Source of the DNA: an uncultured Burkholderiales bacterium
Lineage (GTDB): Bacteria > Pseudomonadota > Gammaproteobacteria > Burkholderiales > Burkholderiaceae_C
Assembly (NCBI GenBank): GCA_945952065.1
Contig: CAMFGY010000002.1
Coordinates: forward strand, 124,001-188,000
Length of the DNA: 64,000 nt
Direction: 5' to 3'
Each line of letters opens with the position of its first letter. Position 1 is the stretch's first letter. The notes under the pieces are model-generated. The model was not told where the DNA came from. It did not search any database and saw nothing but the letters and a program-made list of their open reading frames with translations. Below are positions 1-19,385 of the stretch, in pieces. A program made the translations under genes and the position numbers.

Positions 1-2
1 TG

Positions 3-3000
3 ACTGCCGATGATGGGTGTGTTGTTGACCCGCTGCGCGGACTCTATGGTTGGCTTTGTTTGCATTGCGAGACGGATAGAGCTCAGCTCGTCAATGTCGA
101 CCCCTTGGCACTTGTTCTTTACGGCGACGTTGGCCCCTACAGCAGCTCTGATAGACGGCTGGTGCTGAGAGCACTGAAGGCGGCAGCGGACCGCTTCCCC
201 TGGTTCAGAAATGACGACTGGGCAGCTCGGCCTTTTGGTGCTTTGGGTTCACCAGATTTAATCGCGGACTTCGCTTTGATTCTCAGGGACCCGGCACGCG
301 GTCTCGCACATGAGCCGTTCTTGGCATGCGTCATAGACGCGTTGATTCATGGCTCACCGATTCCTGCGCTGGCCACCGACCTTTACGCCGTCGTGACAGA
401 TTCGACCTACACCTCTCGCGTGCGTCGCGAAAGCGCGGCCGCTTGGCTCAACTGCACTGGCAATGATTCAACTGCAGCCCTGCAGCTACTTTCCGACATT
501 CGAACTGGTGACGTGTTGGATGACGATGACGAAATCAGCGGCCGACTGCTGGATGCCTTGTTTCCGGTGCATATGTCGGCACAACAAGCTTTAGAGAGCC
601 TGCACGGGGCAAAGGCCGAAAGTCTGATTGGCTGGTACCACATGTTCTGGGCAGATGATTTCGTGGCCAGAATCCCGAAAGCCCAGATTGCAGATGCCCT
701 TGACCAACTCTTGAAATTTACAGGCAGTCCTGAGGTGCAAGAGGATTCAGAACAAGGGTTTCCCAAACTGGAAAACATCAGAAAGACCGCCCTTAGTCTG
801 CTGAACCATGGGCTGAACATCATTGGAGACGAATCGTCAGACCAGCAGTTATTCAACTGGCTGGGACTGGGGATCGATAAGTACGGCCAAGAACCGTTGC
901 ACTCCGATGTGAAAAACGAAATTGTGAGTTGGTTGGGCGCACGCCCTGAGCGTATGAAGGGCGTTTATCAATGCGGTGTGGACGAGTACCTTTCAGGCGA
1001 TGCGACCACACGCCGGCCCTGGGCAATTGAGAATCGCCTTTACTCGGCGAGTCGCCCTGTGGATTGGTTGCCTTGGGTTCTGGAAAGACTCGCAGATTGG
1101 GGCGACGAAGAACTGGCCAAACATTGGTTCCAACATGCCGCCTGGGCGGTCATGAATGAGCAGGCTGTCGGTAGCATCAACTTGGAATATTTGGAAAGTT
1201 GGGTGCGGAAACACATCGGCGTCTGGCCGACTGCCGAGCAATGGCTCGAAGAGCGTACTTCGCTTCCTCTGGATTCCTGGGATGAGGAAGAGCATAGAAG
1301 GAAAGTGCAGAACCAATTGGATGCCGCATCTCGCAGGGCCAATGAGCGGGCGGTGTTGGCTCCTTTTCTGCCTGGCGTGTTCGCTGGAACGGCTCCGGCC
1401 CATGTGATGGGGAAGATCGCCATAAAGTACAAGCAGCCGCCTTCGGGCAACCAAGGAAGAACGGCGACAGAGCGTGTTGCTAACTACCTTTGTGGTACCC
1501 CGGATGAAGCTGCTAAGGCTATTTCTGCCTTGACACTCGTTCTTGGGCGACGTGACCTCAATACTCGGGCGGAGGTTATATCGTCATTCGAGAAAGGCGA
1601 GCGTTTCTGGCTCAGTTACGCCTGTTTACTCGCAGCGGAACTTGCATGGGCACAAGAGCCGACAGTTTTCGCATCGATTTCAGCAAGTGCGCTAGAAGCG
1701 CTGATCGCCTACCATTTGATAGACGAAGGAGGGCGAACTTGCGGGTGGTTCAAGGCGCTGTGCATGGCGCATCCGGACACCGTTCACCGTGTTTCTAAAG
1801 AGCTTCTTGAGGCTGATTTGCGGGTGGACCCACCAAGACTGCAGCTCTATTTCGGTTTGCCGGATGACGATGCGTCAAGAGAGTTCGTTGCGTTGCTTTT
1901 GCCCGATTTGTTGATGGCAATACCTAGTGCGCCGACGAGTGAGCAGCTTCGGATATTCAATTCCTGCCTGATTCGCGCGGCAAAAAAACATCTGGCGCCG
2001 GAAACACTCCAAAGCTTGCTTGCAGAGAGGCTCAAAGACGAACGCCTATCCATTGAATTTTTTGCTGCACTCCAGATTGCCGCGCTGACCTCGGACCCTG
2101 AACTGCACTTACTTGAACTCAAGACAGTTGCAGACGTTCAGCCGGATATCGGGCTAGCTATCCGCCGAGCATTCGTAGAGCAGAGGGAGGACGATTCCGG
2201 CTGCGTTGAGGAGTCAATCGAATCGGCCGGCTTGCTGATAGAACTTCTCGCTGAATGTGCGCAAGCATCTAATTCATTGATGCCGCACGAGTCAGAAGAT
2301 CCGTTTGGAGAGGGCTGCCGACTCATTCACAACCTGGCCAAACAAATCTCTGATTTGTCCAGTCCATTGGCGACCAAAGAACTCATGCGACTTCGAGCGT
2401 TGCCTGCCATGGGCGCGTGGCGCACTGAACTTGATTGGTATATCGGGGTACAGCAAAAGCTTGCTCGTTCAATTTCGTTCGTGGCGCCAAACGCCACAGA
2501 GGTTGGAAAGGTCCTATGCAATCTTGAACCGGCAAACGCCCGAGACATGGCCATTTTGCTGATCGAGAAAATGATGTGGCTTGCAAAGCGGATTCGATCA
2601 GAAGAAACGAATCAGCTATTGCTGTTCTGGGAGAAAGACTCGAAGGGAGTACTTAAGCCGAAGTCTGAAAACTCTTGCAGGGACGTACTGCACGGACTGC
2701 TTCGCGACAGCATGCTTCCGCTAGGTGTTCAAGTTGAAAAGGAAGCAATGGCAGCGGCCGACAAACGCGCCGACTTGCAGGCAAACACATTGCACCGTGG
2801 CGCCCGCATCGTCGTACCCGTCGAGATAAAAAAGGAAAGCCACTCCGAGGTCTGGACAGCTTGGGTGGATCAGCTTGAGGCGCGATACACGAGCAACCCA
2901 GGTGCCCAGGGCATTGGCGTCTACCTTGTATTTTGGTTCGGTGATAAGCCAAAGCGGCACCCGGATGGCACGGTACCACGCAACGCTGAGCACATGGCCG

Positions 3001-3080
3001 AACTCCTTGGTGCGGCAATACCTAAGGACAGATGGAACCGGATATTCGGCCTAGTCATTGACTTGTCGGCGCGAGCCTAA
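3..3080 (+). CDS. Large uncharacterised protein, 5'-truncated by the window edge; C-terminal PD-(D/E)XK nuclease-like domain; putative defence/cargo protein
   Basis: ORF track gives 60..3080 (TTG start), but the same frame is open back to base 3 (TADDGCVVDPLRGLYGWLC...), so the true start is upstream of the window. C-terminus has RADLQA...VVPVEIKKESHSEVWTAWVDQLEARYTSNP...GIGVYLVFWFG, a D...ExK nuclease-like signature. Confidence 0.7.
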   Translation, partial: TADDGCVVDPLRGLYGWLCLHCETDRAQLVNVDPLALVLYGDVGPYSSSDRRLVLRALKAAADRFPWFRNDDWAARPFGALGSPDLIADFALILRDPARGLAHEPFLACVIDALIHGSPIPALATDLYAVVTDSTYTSRVRRESAAAWLNCTGNDSTAALQLLSDIRTGDVLDDDDEISGRLLDALFPVHMSAQQALESLHGAKAESLIGWYHMFWADDFVARIPKAQIADALDQLLKFTGSPEVQEDSEQGFPKLENIRKTALSLLNHGLNIIGDESSDQQLFNWLGLGIDKYGQEPLHSDVKNEIVSWLGARPERMKGVYQCGVDEYLSGDATTRRPWAIENRLYSASRPVDWLPWVLERLADWGDEELAKHWFQHAAWAVMNEQAVGSINLEYLESWVRKHIGVWPTAEQWLEERTSLPLDSWDEEEHRRKVQNQLDAASRRANERAVLAPFLPGVFAGTAPAHVMGKIAIKYKQPPSGNQGRTATERVANYLCGTPDEAAKAISALTLVLGRRDLNTRAEVISSFEKGERFWLSYACLLAAELAWAQEPTVFASISASALEALIAYHLIDEGGRTCGWFKALCMAHPDTVHRVSKELLEADLRVDPPRLQLYFGLPDDDASREFVALLLPDLLMAIPSAPTSEQLRIFNSCLIRAAKKHLAPETLQSLLAERLKDERLSIEFFAALQIAALTSDPELHLLELKTVADVQPDIGLAIRRAFVEQREDDSGCVEESIESAGLLIELLAECAQASNSLMPHESEDPFGEGCRLIHNLAKQISDLSSPLATKELMRLRALPAMGAWRTELDWYIGVQQKLARSISFVAPNATEVGKVLCNLEPANARDMAILLIEKMMWLAKRIRSEETNQLLLFWEKDSKGVLKPKSENSCRDVLHGLLRDSMLPLGVQVEKEAMAAADKRADLQANTLHRGARIVVPVEIKKESHSEVWTAWVDQLEARYTSNPGAQGIGVYLVFWFGDKPKRHPDGTVPRNAEHMAELLGAAIPKDRWNRIFGLVIDLSARA

Positions 3081-3151
3081 GCCGAGGCAACGAGTCCTGC
3101 GGACTGCGCATGGCATTGGCCTTCTACAGCGCACTGCAAAACAACGCGGAT

Positions 3152-3181
3152 AAAGGAAAGGCGCCTCGGCGCCTTTCCTTT
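3152..3181 (+). terminator. Perfect inverted repeat, probable (bidirectional) terminator
   Basis: AAAGGAAAGGCGCC-TC-GGCGCCTTTCCTTT, 14-bp perfect stem, 70 bp after the stop of the first CDS. Confidence 0.65.
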
Positions 3182-3288
3182 ACTTAACCTGTTTTAGCCA
3201 GCATTGGGGATCTGCTCGTTCATCCAAACGACACATCAATCGCCCCTGAAATTCCTTTAATTGCCCTCATGCCCCCATTGCAGCGTTG

Positions 3289-3357
3289 CCGCGAAACGAC
3301 TTTGTTTCGCAGGCAAGGACTTTGTTTCCGGGGTAACGACTTTATTTCAGACTGACA
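3289..3357 (-). mobile_element. Putative Tn7-like transposon end (glmS-proximal) with three tandem 20-bp TnsB-like sites
   Basis: Minus strand reads TGTCAGTCT|GAAATAAAGTCGTTACCCCG|GAAACAAAGTCCTTGCCTGC|GAAACAAAGTCGTTTCGCGG; the TGT tip is 25 bp past the glmS stop codon (3383-3385). Confidence 0.65.
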
Positions 3358-3382
3358 GCAAATAGGGGCACCAGCCCCCTAC

Positions 3383-5254
3383 TTACTCCACTGTCACGCT
3401 CTTGGCCAGGTTGCGAGGCTTGTCGACATCGGTGCCGCGGGCGCAGGCGGTGTGATAGGCGAGCAACTGCAGCGGGATCACATGCAAGATGGGGCTGAGT
3501 GCGCCATAGTGCTCAGGCATGCGGATCACATGCAGGCCGGGCTCCGATTGGATCTGGGTGTCACCGTCGGCGAAGACATAGAGTTGGCCGCCACGTGCGC
3601 GCACCTCTTGCATATTGCTCTTGAGTTTTTCCAGCAAGGTGTCGTTGGGCGCCACGGTCACGACAGGCATTTCAGCGGTGACGAGTGCCAAGGGGCCATG
3701 CTTGAGCTCACCTGCCGGGTAGGCTTCGGCATGGATGTAGCTGATCTCCTTGAGCTTCAAAGCGCCTTCCAAGGCAATCGGGTAGTGCAGGCCGCGCCCC
3801 AGGAAAAGCGCGTTTTCCTTGCGAGCGAACTCTTCGCTCCAAGCAATGACTTGAGGCTCCAAAGCCAACACCGCTTGCACCGCCACGGGCAGGTGCCGTA
3901 GGGCTTTCAAATGCTCGGCTTCTTGCGCTTCGCTCAAGTGGCCGCGCGTCTGGGCCAGGGCCAGGGTCAACAAGAACAGGCCCACCAGCTGGGTTGTGAA
4001 CGCTTTGGTGGATGCCACGCCGATTTCTGCGCCTGCACGGGTGATGTAGGCCAATTCGCATTCGCGAACCATGGCACTGGTGGCCACATTGCAGACCGTC
4101 AAGGTGTGCTTCATGCCCATGGCGCGCGCATGTTTCAAAGCGGCCAGGGTGTCGGCCGTTTCTCCGCTCTGGCTGATCGTAACGACCAAAGTGCGCGGGT
4201 TCGGCACGCTGTCGCGGTAGCGGTATTCGCTGGCAATTTCCACGCTGGTCGGGATCTTGGCAATGCTTTCCAGCCAATACTTGGCGGTTGAGCCTGAATA
4301 AAAGCTGGTGCCACAAGCCAAGATCAAGACCGAGTCCACCTCCTTGAAGATGCGGTAAGCGCCGTCCCCAAACAACTCAGGGCTGATGCCGGTGATGGCT
4401 TCGAGCGTGTTGGCGATGGCCGTGGGCTGCTCGAAGATTTCCTTTTGCATATAGTGGCGATACGGGCCCAGTTCCGCTGCGCCGCTGTGCGCATGCACGG
4501 TGCGGACTTCGCGCTGCTGCGGCTCATAACGGCCTGTTTCAGCGTTGCGTCGCGTGATCCAGAAGCGTCCCGGCTGCAGGTCCACCACATCGCCTTCTTC
4601 CAAGTAGACGATCTGGTCGGTCACCCCTGCCAGCGCCATGGCGTCGGAGGCCACGAAGTGCTCACCGTCTGCGGCGTCCATGCCCACACCCAGCACCAGC
4701 GGCGAGCCTTCGCGTGCCGCCACCACATGATGCGGCTCATCTCGGCAAAACACCGCCACCGCATAAGCGCCCTTCAGGCGCGGCAAGGCTTGTTGCACAG
4801 CGTCGAGCAAGTCACCGCTGTAGAGATGGTCAATCAAATGGGCGATGACCTCGGTATCGGTCTGGCTGCTGAAGACGTAGCCGCGCGACTTCAGTTCGGC
4901 TCGCAGTTCATCGTGGTTTTCGATGATGCCGTTGTGCACCAGCGCAATCCGCCCCACGCTGTCGGCGCTGGCGTTGGGGCCTTGCGAGAAATGCGGGTGC
5001 GCGTTGTGAACGGCCGGTGCCCCGTGGGTGGCCCAGCGGGTGTGGGCAATGCCGGTGCCGGAGGCGATGCCATCTTCAGCCGCCAAACCGGTGAGCTCCG
5101 CCACGCGGGAAGTGCTGCGAGCACGCTTGAGCCCGCCGTCTTGGTGCACTGCCACACCACAAGAGTCATAGCCCCGGTATTCCAGGCGCTTGAGGCCTTC
5201 GATCAAGATGGGGACGATGTTGCGCTGACTGACGGCTCCGACGATTCCGCACAT
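3383..5254 (-). CDS. glmS: Glutamine--fructose-6-phosphate aminotransferase (isomerizing)
   Basis: [34 protein letters not shown]-terminus, two SIS domains, ...LAKSVTVE C-terminus. Confidence 0.97.
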
Positions 5255-5993: not shown

Positions 5994-7160
5994 TCAGGCC
6001 TTGTTGCGACGGCGTGCAGCGCCAGCCACCACCCACAGGCCCAGAGCCATCAAGGCATAGGTCTGAGGCTCGGGCACCGCCGTCACGCTGGCGATGAAGC
6101 CCAGGTGCGAGAACACAGCCGTCGAACCCGACAGGTCACCATAGCTGGACTTGTTGACCGTGCTCGCGTCGCAGTCCAAGGCGAAAGTGCTGCAAGCTTG
6201 CCAACCCCAAGAGTGCACGCCGGACAGCACCCATTCCGTGCCATTCCAGACGAAGTCGCCACCGCCGGAGTCGCCACCGGCGATCAGACCTTCCAGGCCG
6301 CCCAGGCCGTCATTGCTGCTGAACTTGTTGCCTGTGATGTCGGCAATGCGCTGCATGGTGTTGTGCTGCGCGGTCCCCTTGTCGAAGTCCACCATATAGG
6401 TGACGCCGTATTTGTAGTAGTTCTCGTCATAGCCCCAGTCAGGACCGATGGCGTCGCCCACGACCTTGTTGAAGGTCTTGCTGTCGATGTCAAAGGTGTT
6501 GAAGGCGTAGTGACCAAACTTGCCATCGTTCCAGTTGGTGGCGGTGTTGTTGCCACCATTGCTGGTGGTGCCATAGCCGGCCATCAAGTGGGTCTTGCCC
6601 ACGTCGTTGGTGGTGCTGAGGTTGTAGCCCTTGATGGTGGTGACGGGGGCGTCCAGCTTCAGGATGGCGATGTCCGCGCCCGTATCCAAGTCACCATTCC
6701 AGCCAGAATGGATGAAGGCATTGCCCACCGACACATTGCGGGTTTCAACGGCCTTGCCGTCGTACCAACCAAACTGCACCGTCATCTTGCTGAAGTCATC
6801 AGCGCAATGCGCTGCAGTCAGCACATACTGGCCGCCCGCCAGCAAAGAGCCCGAGCAGGCGTAGTTGCCGGCCGAGGTGGTGAAGCTCAGACGCGCCACA
6901 CCGTCGAGCAAACCGGCCACGCCACCAATCACTTGGCCCGGCGCAAAACGCCAGTTAGAGGGGTCGCTGGTGTTGCCAGTCAGAGGGTCCATGCCAATGG
7001 CGCTGGCAGGAGGCAAACGCAGGTTCGCTGTGCTTTGATCGCCCGCGGCATGCGCGGCGCCCACCAAAGTCAGCAGCGCGGCTGCGGCGATGACATTCAA
7101 ATGCTTGACCAAGGTCCTACTCCTCGAAATTTGTCTTGAAACGGTCGATGCCCTGGTCAA
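5994..7160 (-). CDS. Trypsin-like serine protease with PEP-CTERM sorting signal (start uncertain)
   Basis: Signal peptide, LTAAHC, DTGADIAILKLD, GGDSGGGDF motifs; C-term VPEPQTYALMALGLWVVAGAARRRNKA. Confidence 0.88.
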   Translation of the reverse strand: MTRASTVSRQISRSRTLVKHLNVIAAAALLTLVGAAHAAGDQSTANLRLPPASAIGMDPLTGNTSDPSNWRFAPGQVIGGVAGLLDGVARLSFTTSAGNYACSGSLLAGGQYVLTAAHCADDFSKMTVQFGWYDGKAVETRNVSVGNAFIHSGWNGDLDTGADIAILKLDAPVTTIKGYNLSTTNDVGKTHLMAGYGTTSNGGNNTATNWNDGKFGHYAFNTFDIDSKTFNKVVGDAIGPDWGYDENYYKYGVTYMVDFDKGTAQHNTMQRIADITGNKFSSNDGLGGLEGLIAGGDSGGGDFVWNGTEWVLSGVHSWGWQACSTFALDCDASTVNKSSYGDLSGSTAVFSHLGFIASVTAVPEPQTYALMALGLWVVAGAARRRNKA

Positions 7161-7395
7161 AACGGTCGGGCTGCGCCCGTTGCTGTCATTGCCAGTGGTT
7201 CTTTTATACCCATCGATGCGTGAATATTGTCACGCCAAAGAAACCAAGCCAACCCCCAGACGAGGGCAGTGAATACCCCAAGAAGAAAATCAGAAGGCCC
7301 ATGCAATAGGCCGTTATGCAAGCGCCCCTGAACCGAGCGATCCAAGGGCGCAGGCAAGGCCAACATCAGCCGGATTCAGCCTGGAGGTCGTCTGA

Positions 7396-8505
7396 TCAGC
7401 ATTGTTGGCGGCGACGTGCCGCGCCAGCCACGGCCAACAGACCCAGCGCCATCAAGGCATAGGTTTGCGGTTCAGGCACAGCGGTCACGCTGTTGATGAA
7501 GGCAATGTGCGAAAACACGGCCGTGGAGCCCGAGAGATCGCCGTAGCTGGAGCCGTTGTTTGCCGCGTTGTCGCAAGTCGAGGGCGAAGTGACGCCGTAG
7601 TAGCTGCAAGCGTCGTTCCCGCCCCAGCCCCAAGAATGCACACCGGACAAGAGCCACTCGGTGCCGTTCCAAACAAAGTCACCGCCGCCCGAATCGCCAC
7701 CCGCAATCAAACCCTCGTCGGCCAAATTGGCGATCCCGGCATTGCCCCAGGTTTGGCCGACCTTGGCGCCGATCCGGCCGATGGTGTTGCGGTTCGCGGA
7801 GCCATCATCGAAGTCGACCATATAGGTCACGCCGTACTTGTAAAAGTCGGCGTTGTAGGCCGGATCGGCCAAGCTGTTCAGCGTTTTGCTGTCGATGTCG
7901 AAGGTGTTGAAGGCGTAGTGGCCGTAATTCCTGTCATTCCAGTTGGTGGCCGTGTTGCTGGTCGCTACATTGGTGGTGCCGTAGCCAGCCATCAAATGCT
8001 GCTTGCCCACATCGTTGGTGGTGCTGAGCTTGTAGCCCTTGATGGTGGTGACGGCCGAGTCCAACTTCAGGATGGCGATGTCGGCGCCGGTGTCGAGGTC
8101 ACCATTCCAGCCGCTGTGAACCGTGGCGTTGCCCACCGCGACACTGCGCGTCACGGCGGCCGTGCCGTTGTACCAGCCGAACTGCACGGTCATGCTCTTG
8201 AAGTCGTCGGCGCAATGAGCCGCCGTCAACACATACATGCCCCCCTCCAACAAGGAGCCCGAGCAGGCATAGCTCGCTCCGGCGTTGGTGGTGAAGCTGA
8301 GCTTAGCAACGCCGTCCAGCGCGCCGGCCACACCACCAATGGTTTGGCCGGGGGCAAAGCGCCAATTGGAGGGGGCCGAGGTATTGCCCGTGGTGGGGGT
8401 CAAATCGCCCAATGCGGTGGTTTGACCGTTGCTGGCTTGCGCAACGCCCGTCAGGGCCAATGCCGTTGCTGCGGCCAGCAGTTGGAGGGTATGAGTTTTC
8501 GCCAT
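7396..8505 (-). CDS. Trypsin-like serine protease with PEP-CTERM sorting signal (paralogue of neighbour)
   Basis: Highly similar to the 5994..7160 product; LTAAHC/DIAILKLD/GGDSGGGDF; C-term VPEPQTYALMALGLLAVAGAARRRQQC. Confidence 0.88.
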   Translation of the reverse strand: MAKTHTLQLLAAATALALTGVAQASNGQTTALGDLTPTTGNTSAPSNWRFAPGQTIGGVAGALDGVAKLSFTTNAGASYACSGSLLEGGMYVLTAAHCADDFKSMTVQFGWYNGTAAVTRSVAVGNATVHSGWNGDLDTGADIAILKLDSAVTTIKGYKLSTTNDVGKQHLMAGYGTTNVATSNTATNWNDRNYGHYAFNTFDIDSKTLNSLADPAYNADFYKYGVTYMVDFDDGSANRNTIGRIGAKVGQTWGNAGIANLADEGLIAGGDSGGGDFVWNGTEWLLSGVHSWGWGGNDACSYYGVTSPSTCDNAANNGSSYGDLSGSTAVFSHIAFINSVTAVPEPQTYALMALGLLAVAGAARRRQQC

Positions 8506-8726
8506 GATGTCCCAGTTCTTCCGTGATCGGCGCCCATAGGCGCCTACTCCCACTGCGACCCCAGCCTCCTGGGCAGGAGTCGCACCAAACGACGCAGAAA
8601 CTGCGATCGATGACGGCAATATGTCACGGCCTCACAGAGGCAGGACTGATGGCTTTTGCCCAAGTAAAAACCCCTAGACATCGCGCCGATTGACACGGCA
8701 CACCCGGCTCCGCTAGCCCCCCCCGC

Positions 8727-15018: not shown

Positions 15019-15912
15019 TCAGGCCTCCCGTCCGGCGTCAGCCTCGGTCGGCGCCACACCGATGTCGAGACCCCGAGGTTGTTTGTAGCGGTTGTAGCCC
15101 CAGAGATACTGCTCGGGAGCCAGACGGATCAGTTGTTCCATGGATTGATTGATGAGAGCGGCAGCGGATTCTGGCGCGGAATCGGCTGGGATTTCAGGCC
15201 CAGGAAAGATATGAATGGCGTAACCCGCCCCTGCGGGCAAGCGTTCACCCCATGCCAGCAAGGCCGTGGCACCGGTTTGCTGCAGCAAGCGCGCGGCCAA
15301 GGTCATGGTGTAGGCCGGGCGGCCAAAGAAAGGCGCCCAAACACCCAAACCCTCGGGGGGCACTTGGTCGGGCAGCAAGCCAATGGTCTGACCGCGACGC
15401 AAAGCCCGGATCATTTGCCGCACGCCGGCCAAACTTGCCGGCGCGGTGGCCAAGCCCGGCCGACGCCGCGAGGCCTCCACCACACCGCGCAGCCAGCGTT
15501 GCCGCGCGGGGCGATACAGCACTGTGATGGGCTCGATGGCGCTGGCAAAGCGCTCGGCATAGGCTTGCGCGGTGATCTCAAAACAGCCCATATGGGGCGT
15601 CAACATCACAATCCCTTTGCCTTGGGCCAAGGCCTGCTCTATCAGCTCCACGCCATGCCAGCGCACCGTGTCGCCCAGCGCTTTGTTCAGCGGCCGCATC
15701 CACAGCCACGGAATCTCCATCATCATGCGCCCCGCGCTGGCAATGCCACCACGCGCGACCTGCCAGGCCAAACCGGCTATCGCCACATTGGCGCGGTAAC
15801 GATGCCGATAGCTGGCTGAAGCCCAGTAGGTCAAACACCCCAGGCCCGCCCCCAAGCCGTGCAAGACGCGCAAGGGCAATTTCGCCAAGGTTCGGAACAA
15901 CAGCATCAACAT
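15019..15912 (-). CDS. Lysophospholipid/lipid A acyltransferase family (LpxL/HtrB-like)
   Basis: [16 protein letters not shown] (H-x4-E), [16 protein letters not shown]. Confidence 0.88.
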
Positions 15913-17732: not shown

Positions 17733-18569
17733 TCATTCGGCAATGATGGACTCTTCGCGCAACTGACTTCGGGCCTGTTCAAACTCGGGCAAGACCGAAC
17801 GCACCACATCCCAGAAGCGGGCACTGTGGTTCATTTCGCGCAAATGCGCGAGTTCATGCGCCACCACATAGTCGATGATGGCGGGCGAAAAATGGATCAA
17901 GCGCCAGTTCAAACGGATGGAACCATCGACGCTGGCGCTGCCCCAGCGGGTTTGGGCCGAACTCAGGCGCAGGTGCGTCATCTGCACATTCAAGGCCTGC
18001 GCAAAGAACTGGCAGCGAGGCTCAAAGACCGCTCTTGCGCGGCGCTTCAACCAGGCTTGTGCCAAATCGCGCACCTGTTCTTCGCGAGCTTGCAGGGGCA
18101 AGCCCAAGCGCAGCAAGGCCCCGGATTCATCCAGCCGCGCGCCGGTCTGCTCCGGGTCCAGGCGCAGCCAGATCGGCTGGCCCAGATACTTCAGGGTGCC
18201 GCCATCACGCCACTCAATGCGCGCCGCTTCAACCCGGCGCGCCCGCTCGCCCTGCTCCACCAGCTTGCGCAAAATCCAATCGGACTTTTGCAACAGGGCC
18301 CGCTCAATATCGGCTTGCGGCAGCCAGCGGGGCGCACTGACGCGCAAGCCCTCGGTGCTGACCACAAAGCCAATGCTGCGGCGCCGGGCACGACGCAATT
18401 CATAGGCGACCCGGTGTTCGCCCAGGCTCAGCTCACGCAAAGTTTTGGACGAAGAAGGTGGCTGAGTCTCACCCGGCGGCTTGGGCGTAAGCGGCAAGAC
18501 CCCATCGGCATCGGCATTGAACAAAGACAGTTGCGAGTCCTGCAAAAGCTGAGCCAGTTTCTTGAGCAT
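17733..18569 (-). CDS. YgjP/SprT-like M48-type metallopeptidase (DUF45)
   Basis: VVAHELAHLREMNHSARFWDVV HExxH-type motif, QTRWGSAS motif. Confidence 0.92.
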   Translation of the reverse strand: MLKKLAQLLQDSQLSLFNADADGVLPLTPKPPGETQPPSSSKTLRELSLGEHRVAYELRRARRRSIGFVVSTEGLRVSAPRWLPQADIERALLQKSDWILRKLVEQGERARRVEAARIEWRDGGTLKYLGQPIWLRLDPEQTGARLDESGALLRLGLPLQAREEQVRDLAQAWLKRRARAVFEPRCQFFAQALNVQMTHLRLSSAQTRWGSASVDGSIRLNWRLIHFSPAIIDYVVAHELAHLREMNHSARFWDVVRSVLPEFEQARSQLREESIIAE

Positions 18570-18599
18570 GATGCAAGCAGGCCTGGCCGATAGGGAGAA

Positions 18600-19385
18600 T
18601 CAGGCTTGAGCGGCCGCCGTGCCGACCTGTGGCTCGCGATAGGCCTCGGGGTCGAGTCGGCGCATTTCCCCTTCGATCCAGCCCTCCACTTCCCGCATCA
18701 ACTCAGCGGCCTCGCGCCCCACCGAGGGGATGGGCTTGCCGATGGAGATGTCCACCACGCCAGGGCGCAATAAAAAGCTCTTGCGCGGCCAGCACACCGC
18801 CGAGGTCGCCGCAATCGGCACCACCGGCACTCCGGTTTCAATCGCCAAGCGGCTGCCACCGGTTTTGTACTCGCCCTTTTTGCCGCGGGCGATGCGGGTG
18901 CCTTCCGGGAACATGATGACCCAATGCCCCATGGCGGCCAAACGCTTGCCTTGCTCGGCCACCTTGGTCCAGGCCTGGGCACGCTTGCTGCGGTCGATAT
19001 GGATCATGTCCATGCGCGCCATGGCCCAGCCAAAAAAGGGCACATACAGCAACTCTCGTTTGAACACATAGGCCAAGGGATGCGACATCAGCGCGGGGTA
19101 GGCAAAGGTCTCCCAAGTGCTTTGATGCTTGGACAAAAGAATCACGGCCGAGCGGCGGTCTGCTTCGGTGGGCAAGTTTTCCATGCCTTGGATGCGCCAC
19201 TGCACGCCGCAGATATAGCGGGCGCCGTAAATGGCCAAGCGCAGCCATGCAGCGCAAGACCAATACACCTTGTCGCCCTTGGCAAACACCGAAATCAACA
19301 GCACGGTCAGCGCCCAGGGAATCACCGTGACGATCAGGAACAAGACGAACACAAAGGACCGCACAGCGGCGAACAAGACAGACAT
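18600..19385 (-). CDS. plsC: 1-acyl-sn-glycerol-3-phosphate acyltransferase
   Basis: LLSKHQSTWETF (H-x4-D/E-type), FPEGTR motif, membrane-anchored N-terminus. Confidence 0.9.
   Translation of the reverse strand: MSVLFAAVRSFVFVLFLIVTVIPWALTVLLISVFAKGDKVYWSCAAWLRLAIYGARYICGVQWRIQGMENLPTEADRRSAVILLSKHQSTWETFAYPALMSHPLAYVFKRELLYVPFFGWAMARMDMIHIDRSKRAQAWTKVAEQGKRLAAMGHWVIMFPEGTRIARGKKGEYKTGGSRLAIETGVPVVPIAATSAVCWPRKSFLLRPGVVDISIGKPIPSVGREAAELMREVEGWIEGEMRRLDPEAYREPQVGTAAAQA

Follow-up and report, generated by a model that had tools for sequence, protein, structure and literature searches.

Our analysis identifies the repeat array beside glmS as the right end of a complete Tn7-like transposon of 33,714 bp, which is almost certainly inserted 25 bp downstream of that gene, most likely serves as a defense island, and may no longer move easily. 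The element occupies C2:93644-127357 in a 5.27-Mb assembly. Only its last portion falls within the window, the stretch of 64,000 nucleotides analyzed here (C2:124001-188000; window position equals contig position minus 124000), where, with both ends of the element now located, it spans positions 1..3357 and has its right edge at 3357. The initial annotation placed an end of a Tn7-like element at the glmS attTn7 site and proposed that the window holds this glmS-proximal end only. The first statement is supported by a far end, a target duplication, and tnsABCD genes, and the second is borne out by the position of the rest of the element, left of the window. Although a Tn7 element associated with glmS is textbook material, the clade of elements with a short TnsE and a shared cargo cassette, both described below, go a little further.

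The right end directly follows glmS (3383..5254, minus strand), the TnsD target gene, which encodes a 623-residue protein with Pfam SIS and GATase domains and whose start and stop codons were checked. The stop codon, TAA at 3385-3383 on the minus strand, lies exactly 25 bp before the TGT of the right end, and these 25 bp consist of a 20-bp glmS 3' flank with a GGGGGC..GCCCCT stem (3363..3382, minus strand) and the right copy of a 5-bp target duplication, GCAAA (3358..3362, read on the plus strand), identical to 5 bp at the distal end. From the boundary at 3357, the transposon begins on the minus strand with the terminal 9 bp TGTCAGTCT (3349..3357) and continues into three contiguous 20-mers that we predict, on the basis of motif counts and sequence, to be TnsB sites: R1, GAAATAAAGTCGTTACCCCG (3329..3348); R2, GAAACAAAGTCCTTGCCTGC (3309..3328); and R3, GAAACAAAGTCGTTTCGCGG (3289..3308), all on the minus strand. 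They have the common core GAAAYAAAGTCSTT, which, when one mismatch at most is allowed, is matched three times in the window where 0.01 matches would be expected, a count that was reached in 0 of 100 shuffles. The array, its spacing from glmS, and its TGT start are all present in the sequence as initially described. Elsewhere in the window, at 5994-8619 on the minus strand, two tandem and similar trypsin-like protease genes are found whose C termini resemble PEP-CTERM sorting signals.

The second end lies to the left, at a distance of 33.7 kb. Across the 5.27-Mb genome there are four exact copies of AAAYAAAGTCSTT, three at the near end and one, inverted, at C2:93654, so that the motif is exclusive to the two ends of the element genome-wide. 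At C2:93644 the far end reads TATCAGTATTAAATAAAGTCGTT, which is identical to the near end at 20 of 23 positions when the two are aligned. The left copy of GCAAA (C2:93639-93643, outside the window) directly abuts this end; because the end alignment fixes the position of the duplication, a 5/5 match would be expected by chance with a probability of about 1/1024. The 5-bp duplication at both ends and the arrays of ~20-bp predicted TnsB sites in opposite orientation are features by which Tn7-like elements are recognized. The sites are contiguous at the near end and spaced at the far end (93653, 93719, and 93774), and two of the three left-end sites are degenerate; in Tn7, TnsB sites are likewise contiguous at the right end and spaced at the left (PMC11406308). 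GC content is 54.9% within the element and 62.3% and 63.6% in its flanks, with a step at both edges. The termini are TGT on the right and TAT on the left, rather than TGT at both ends, so mobility of the element may be impaired. Of what had been predicted for the distal end, the inverted orientation, the same site motif, and the GCAAA duplication were all recovered, whereas the terminus proved to be TAT instead of TGT.

Two other placements in this region were rejected. The sequence GCGAATGTC at C2:93586, considered as an alternative far end, has no adjacent site motif and only four of the five bases of the duplication, and a tandem older Tn7 element just left of the far end is contradicted by the lack of a TGT end after the left duplication and by the location on contig C4 of the single further TniQ in the genome. 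On that contig, a second pair of TnsB-like and TniQ-like genes (C4:301097-303571) possibly belongs to another Tn7/Tn5053-type element. The left flank of the transposon (C2 82-93.7 kb) is itself variable DNA; as nothing matching it adjoins glmS in the relatives compared, an empty site could not be demonstrated. Also to the left are a heavy-metal efflux island (C2:68000-84000, L004), recognized from reading frames for RND, P-type ATPase, and MerR regulator proteins, and, on the minus strand outside the transposon, an Rfam anti-hemB RNA (Burkholderia RNA 7; C2:88954-89040, L005 954-1040; 58.9 bits).

Extension of the contig to the left, as the initial annotation had advised, recovered tnsA (C2:114544-115359, 271 aa), tnsB (C2:112357-114540, 727 aa), tnsC (C2:110843-112360, 505 aa), and tnsD (C2:109143-110846, 567 aa), followed in the place of tnsE by a short TnsE-like ORF (C2:108373-109146, 257 aa). 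All are on the minus strand, in the order tnsA-tnsB-tnsC-tnsD-short TnsE, and are closely packed or overlapping. Among solved structures, the prototypic Tn7 proteins are the best matches of TnsA (1f1z, 4e-27), TnsB (7pik, 3e-75), TnsC (8glu, 7e-62), and TnsD (8glu, 6e-24). The four genes tnsA to tnsD are open, full length, and retain their catalytic motifs, including the conserved TnsB positions D301, D389, and E424, and TnsD combines a TniQ with a TnsD domain. TnsB escapes detection by the models of Pfam and NCBIfam, which marks it as divergent. The presence of a DDE TnsB, an AAA+ TnsC, and a TniQ/TnsD protein identifies the element as Tn7-like, and TnsA, the C-terminal domain of TnsD, an insertion point ~25 bp after the stop codon, and the right end turned toward glmS assign it to the glmS-targeting branch. 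By analogy with the biochemistry of Tn7, TnsD would have recruited TnsC after binding to glmS at its conserved 3' end, TnsC would have activated TnsA and TnsB to cut the element from its donor, and TnsA and TnsB would have joined it to the target in one orientation, with the right end facing glmS.

The layout departs from the strict prototype, in which tnsA lies directly inside the right end, in that a gap of 12,024 bp between glmS and tnsA is filled with cargo. Of 47 loci surveyed, 29 have a glmS-tnsA gap of less than 600 bp and 14 one above 1.5 kb, and since gaps in the other loci were detectable only up to about 9 kb, the 12.0 kb seen here cannot be ranked as the largest. A gene other than a tns gene at the transposon end had been read as the sign of either a variant layout or a fixed remnant; a complete tns operon 12.0 kb from the right end bears out the former and does not demonstrate the latter.

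Relatives of the element proved to be distant. The best TnsB matches in the family, for which 400 genomes were compared, are at most 31% identical, and a single-sequence TnsB scan of genome contigs gave no matches. An alignment-based scan, covering 84,980 species, found TnsB proteins in Massilia soli (45% identity), a metagenome-assembled genome (MAG; 42%), and another MAG, of Pandoraea (41%), the next being at ~31%. Together with the present element, these three form one TnsB clade (support 99/98), deeper placement of which is unsafe owing to the long branch of the G008 sequence in the tree. All three relatives adjoin glmS, and two of them (Pandoraea and the MAG) begin with TGT-N6-GAAATAAAGTCGTT 24-25 bp after the stop codon.

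The cargo is dominated by putative anti-phage defense genes, as judged from homology: type I restriction-modification, NYN, EruA-like NACHT, DarTG, and retron-like reverse transcriptase genes. Between the right end and tnsA lie hsdR (C2:115820-118198), an HNH nuclease gene (C2:118203-119105), hsdM (C2:119157-120626), hsdS (C2:120623-122194), a gene for an NYN/OST-HTH protein (C2:122207-122935), and, on the plus strand, one for an EruA-like NACHT antiphage protein of 1361 aa (C2:122995-127080), the C-terminal 1025 aa of which are encoded at window positions 1..3080. This protein matches NF058535 over its full length (E 2e-262), but its 874 bits fall below the cut-off of 1000, and we call it EruA-like rather than EruA. 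Beyond the tns genes are DarT-DarG (C2:106278-107626), a TPR-CHAT protein (C2:103133-106219), a DUF4407 protein (C2:101110-102099), a sigma factor (C2:99202-99819), a retron-like reverse transcriptase (C2:97395-98273), near which Rfam detected no retron RNA, and a caspase-like protein (C2:95622-96764). The main ORFs of the element include no Cas genes by Pfam or, for a part of them, PADLOC, which sets it apart from CASTs. The most likely role of the element today is that of a defense island in the safe attTn7 site.

The restriction genes bear on how the element acquired its present form. In a sister species, G008, the same glmS site is occupied by a Tn7-like element whose TnsB is only ~25% identical to the present one, and yet the hsdR-HNH-hsdM-hsdS-NYN block of that element (C1:605819-612875, L080) is ~91% identical in nucleotide sequence to C2:115847-122973, compared with 86% for glmS. 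The match covers the operon and ends at its edges, with differences in part of the HNH gene and in the recognition regions of hsdS. Similar hsdR and hsdM genes (87-91%) accompanied by no NYN gene are found in genomes of other genera (G380 and G050), away from the contigs that carry their glmS, so the block may have been passed between the two elements or acquired twice. Both observations, a match confined to the block within a different element and NYN-less cassettes away from glmS, lead us to regard as fairly probable a history in two events, compatible with our main reading, in which the region from the right end of a Tn7-like element to tnsA was later altered by insertion, recombination, or exchange of a defense cassette. 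The three clade relatives, however, also have cargo-sized DNA in this position, and some right-side cargo may therefore be ancestral. A large survey of such elements left open how cargo is gained (PMC8649781), and a near-identical restriction-NYN cassette in two unrelated elements at the same site offers a concrete case.

A second unusual feature of the element is its TnsE, which at 257 aa falls well short of the ~540 aa of the full-length protein and so of the strict prototype. When the ORF was first compared by profile with five TnsE proteins, it matched their N-terminal half weakly, and separate HMMs were used for the two halves, that for the N-terminal half being built from eight full-length TnsE proteins. 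The N-half HMM matches the 257-aa ORF (1.4e-10) and its homologs in Massilia (277 aa, 5e-17; 40% identical to the ORF) and the MAG (269 aa, 2e-11; 32% identical). With the C-half HMM, neither the 60 kb read at this locus nor the loci of the relatives gave a convincing match (control TnsE, 1.7e-79), and the reading frames past the short TnsE gave no match to a lost C-terminal half. TnsE is thus half-length in all three clade members in which the gene can be read whole, the Pandoraea contig ending inside the gene, and these short proteins appear to represent a conserved, half-length form of TnsE. In a published prediction, the N-terminal region of the full-length protein folds as two PriB-like single-strand-binding domains (PMC10293859). 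An AlphaFold model of the Massilia protein was too poor (pLDDT 55) to bear on this prediction, and a fold search with it gave no significant matches, although several of the top ones were OB-fold proteins. That the short protein is a working target-selection factor, operating through its predicted single-strand-binding half in place of the whole, seems rather unlikely, but if true, it would offer a naturally occurring minimal system in which to study the choice of replication-linked targets and to find the part of TnsE that makes contact with TnsC. How TnsE recruits TnsC has been described as unknown, with no mechanistic work outside prototypic Tn7 (PMC11406308), and a half-length TnsE across a clade bears on this question. 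In a separate case, tnsE of Halomonas sp. A11-A appears to be split (L157 15175-19011), with its N-half at 15175-15684 and its C-half at 17809-19011.

The TAT left terminus, the degeneracy of two of the three left-end sites, and a TnsE without its C-terminal half could together describe an immobilized relic, that is, an old insertion now fixed, with a mutated terminus, a truncated TnsE, and tns genes that are mere passengers. Such a relic would share the insertion event with our main reading and depart from it over present activity. We consider this possible but somewhat doubtful, given that tnsA to tnsD are open and full length with intact catalytic motifs and that the similar length of the short TnsE in three diverged elements speaks against fresh decay.

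Comparison with sister species of the genus supports a transposon at this site. Arrays with a 20-bp period but of other sequences lie right after glmS in four of them, G003 (L013), G008 (L009), G010 (L018, weaker), and G011 (L015), and the remaining sister species compared have none; within this genus, the site is thus apparently shared by several Tn7-like families. The same array in relatives without an insertion, which the initial annotation had put forward as evidence against itself, is not what these flanks contain. Neither G010 nor G011 has a TniQ match in its genome, and their arrays may be remnants or belong to defective elements. Although the present array lies at the 3' end of glmS and adjoins a hairpin, its interpretation as a host feature, such as a glmS terminator or regulatory repeats, is refuted with near certainty by the lack of the motif in the sister species' glmS flanks and by the inverted second copy with a matching duplication alongside.

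Overall, the complete transposon described here resembles Tn7 in the order and polarity of tnsABCD, the right end directed toward glmS, the distance of 25 bp from stop codon to insertion, the 5-bp duplication, TnsB sites that are contiguous at the right end and spaced at the left, and proteins whose best structural matches are those of Tn7. Unlike Tn7, it has a tnsA separated from the right end by 12 kb of cargo, an N-half TnsE, and a TAT left terminus, and its TnsB is ~30% identical to that of plasmid Tn7-like elements. The elements of Massilia soli R798, Pandoraea sp. FW106-10_bin.9, and MAG SKS3.bin93 share its clade, its glmS site, and a displaced tnsA (2.4-8.1 kb from the right end), and those of R798 and SKS3.bin93 also a short TnsE-like gene, but they differ in their cargo and have TnsB proteins only 41-45% identical. 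The element of Thiomonas delicata DSM 16361 (G061, L141), about 27 kb from glmS, is alike in its operon of TnsABCD and TnsE, and differs in a TnsB that is 31% identical and a full-length TnsE of 549 aa. In a survey by Benler et al. (2021), in which median lengths were 14-29 kb, defense genes were an enriched class of Tn7-like cargo (PMC8649781), and the present element, like those surveyed, carries defense cargo.
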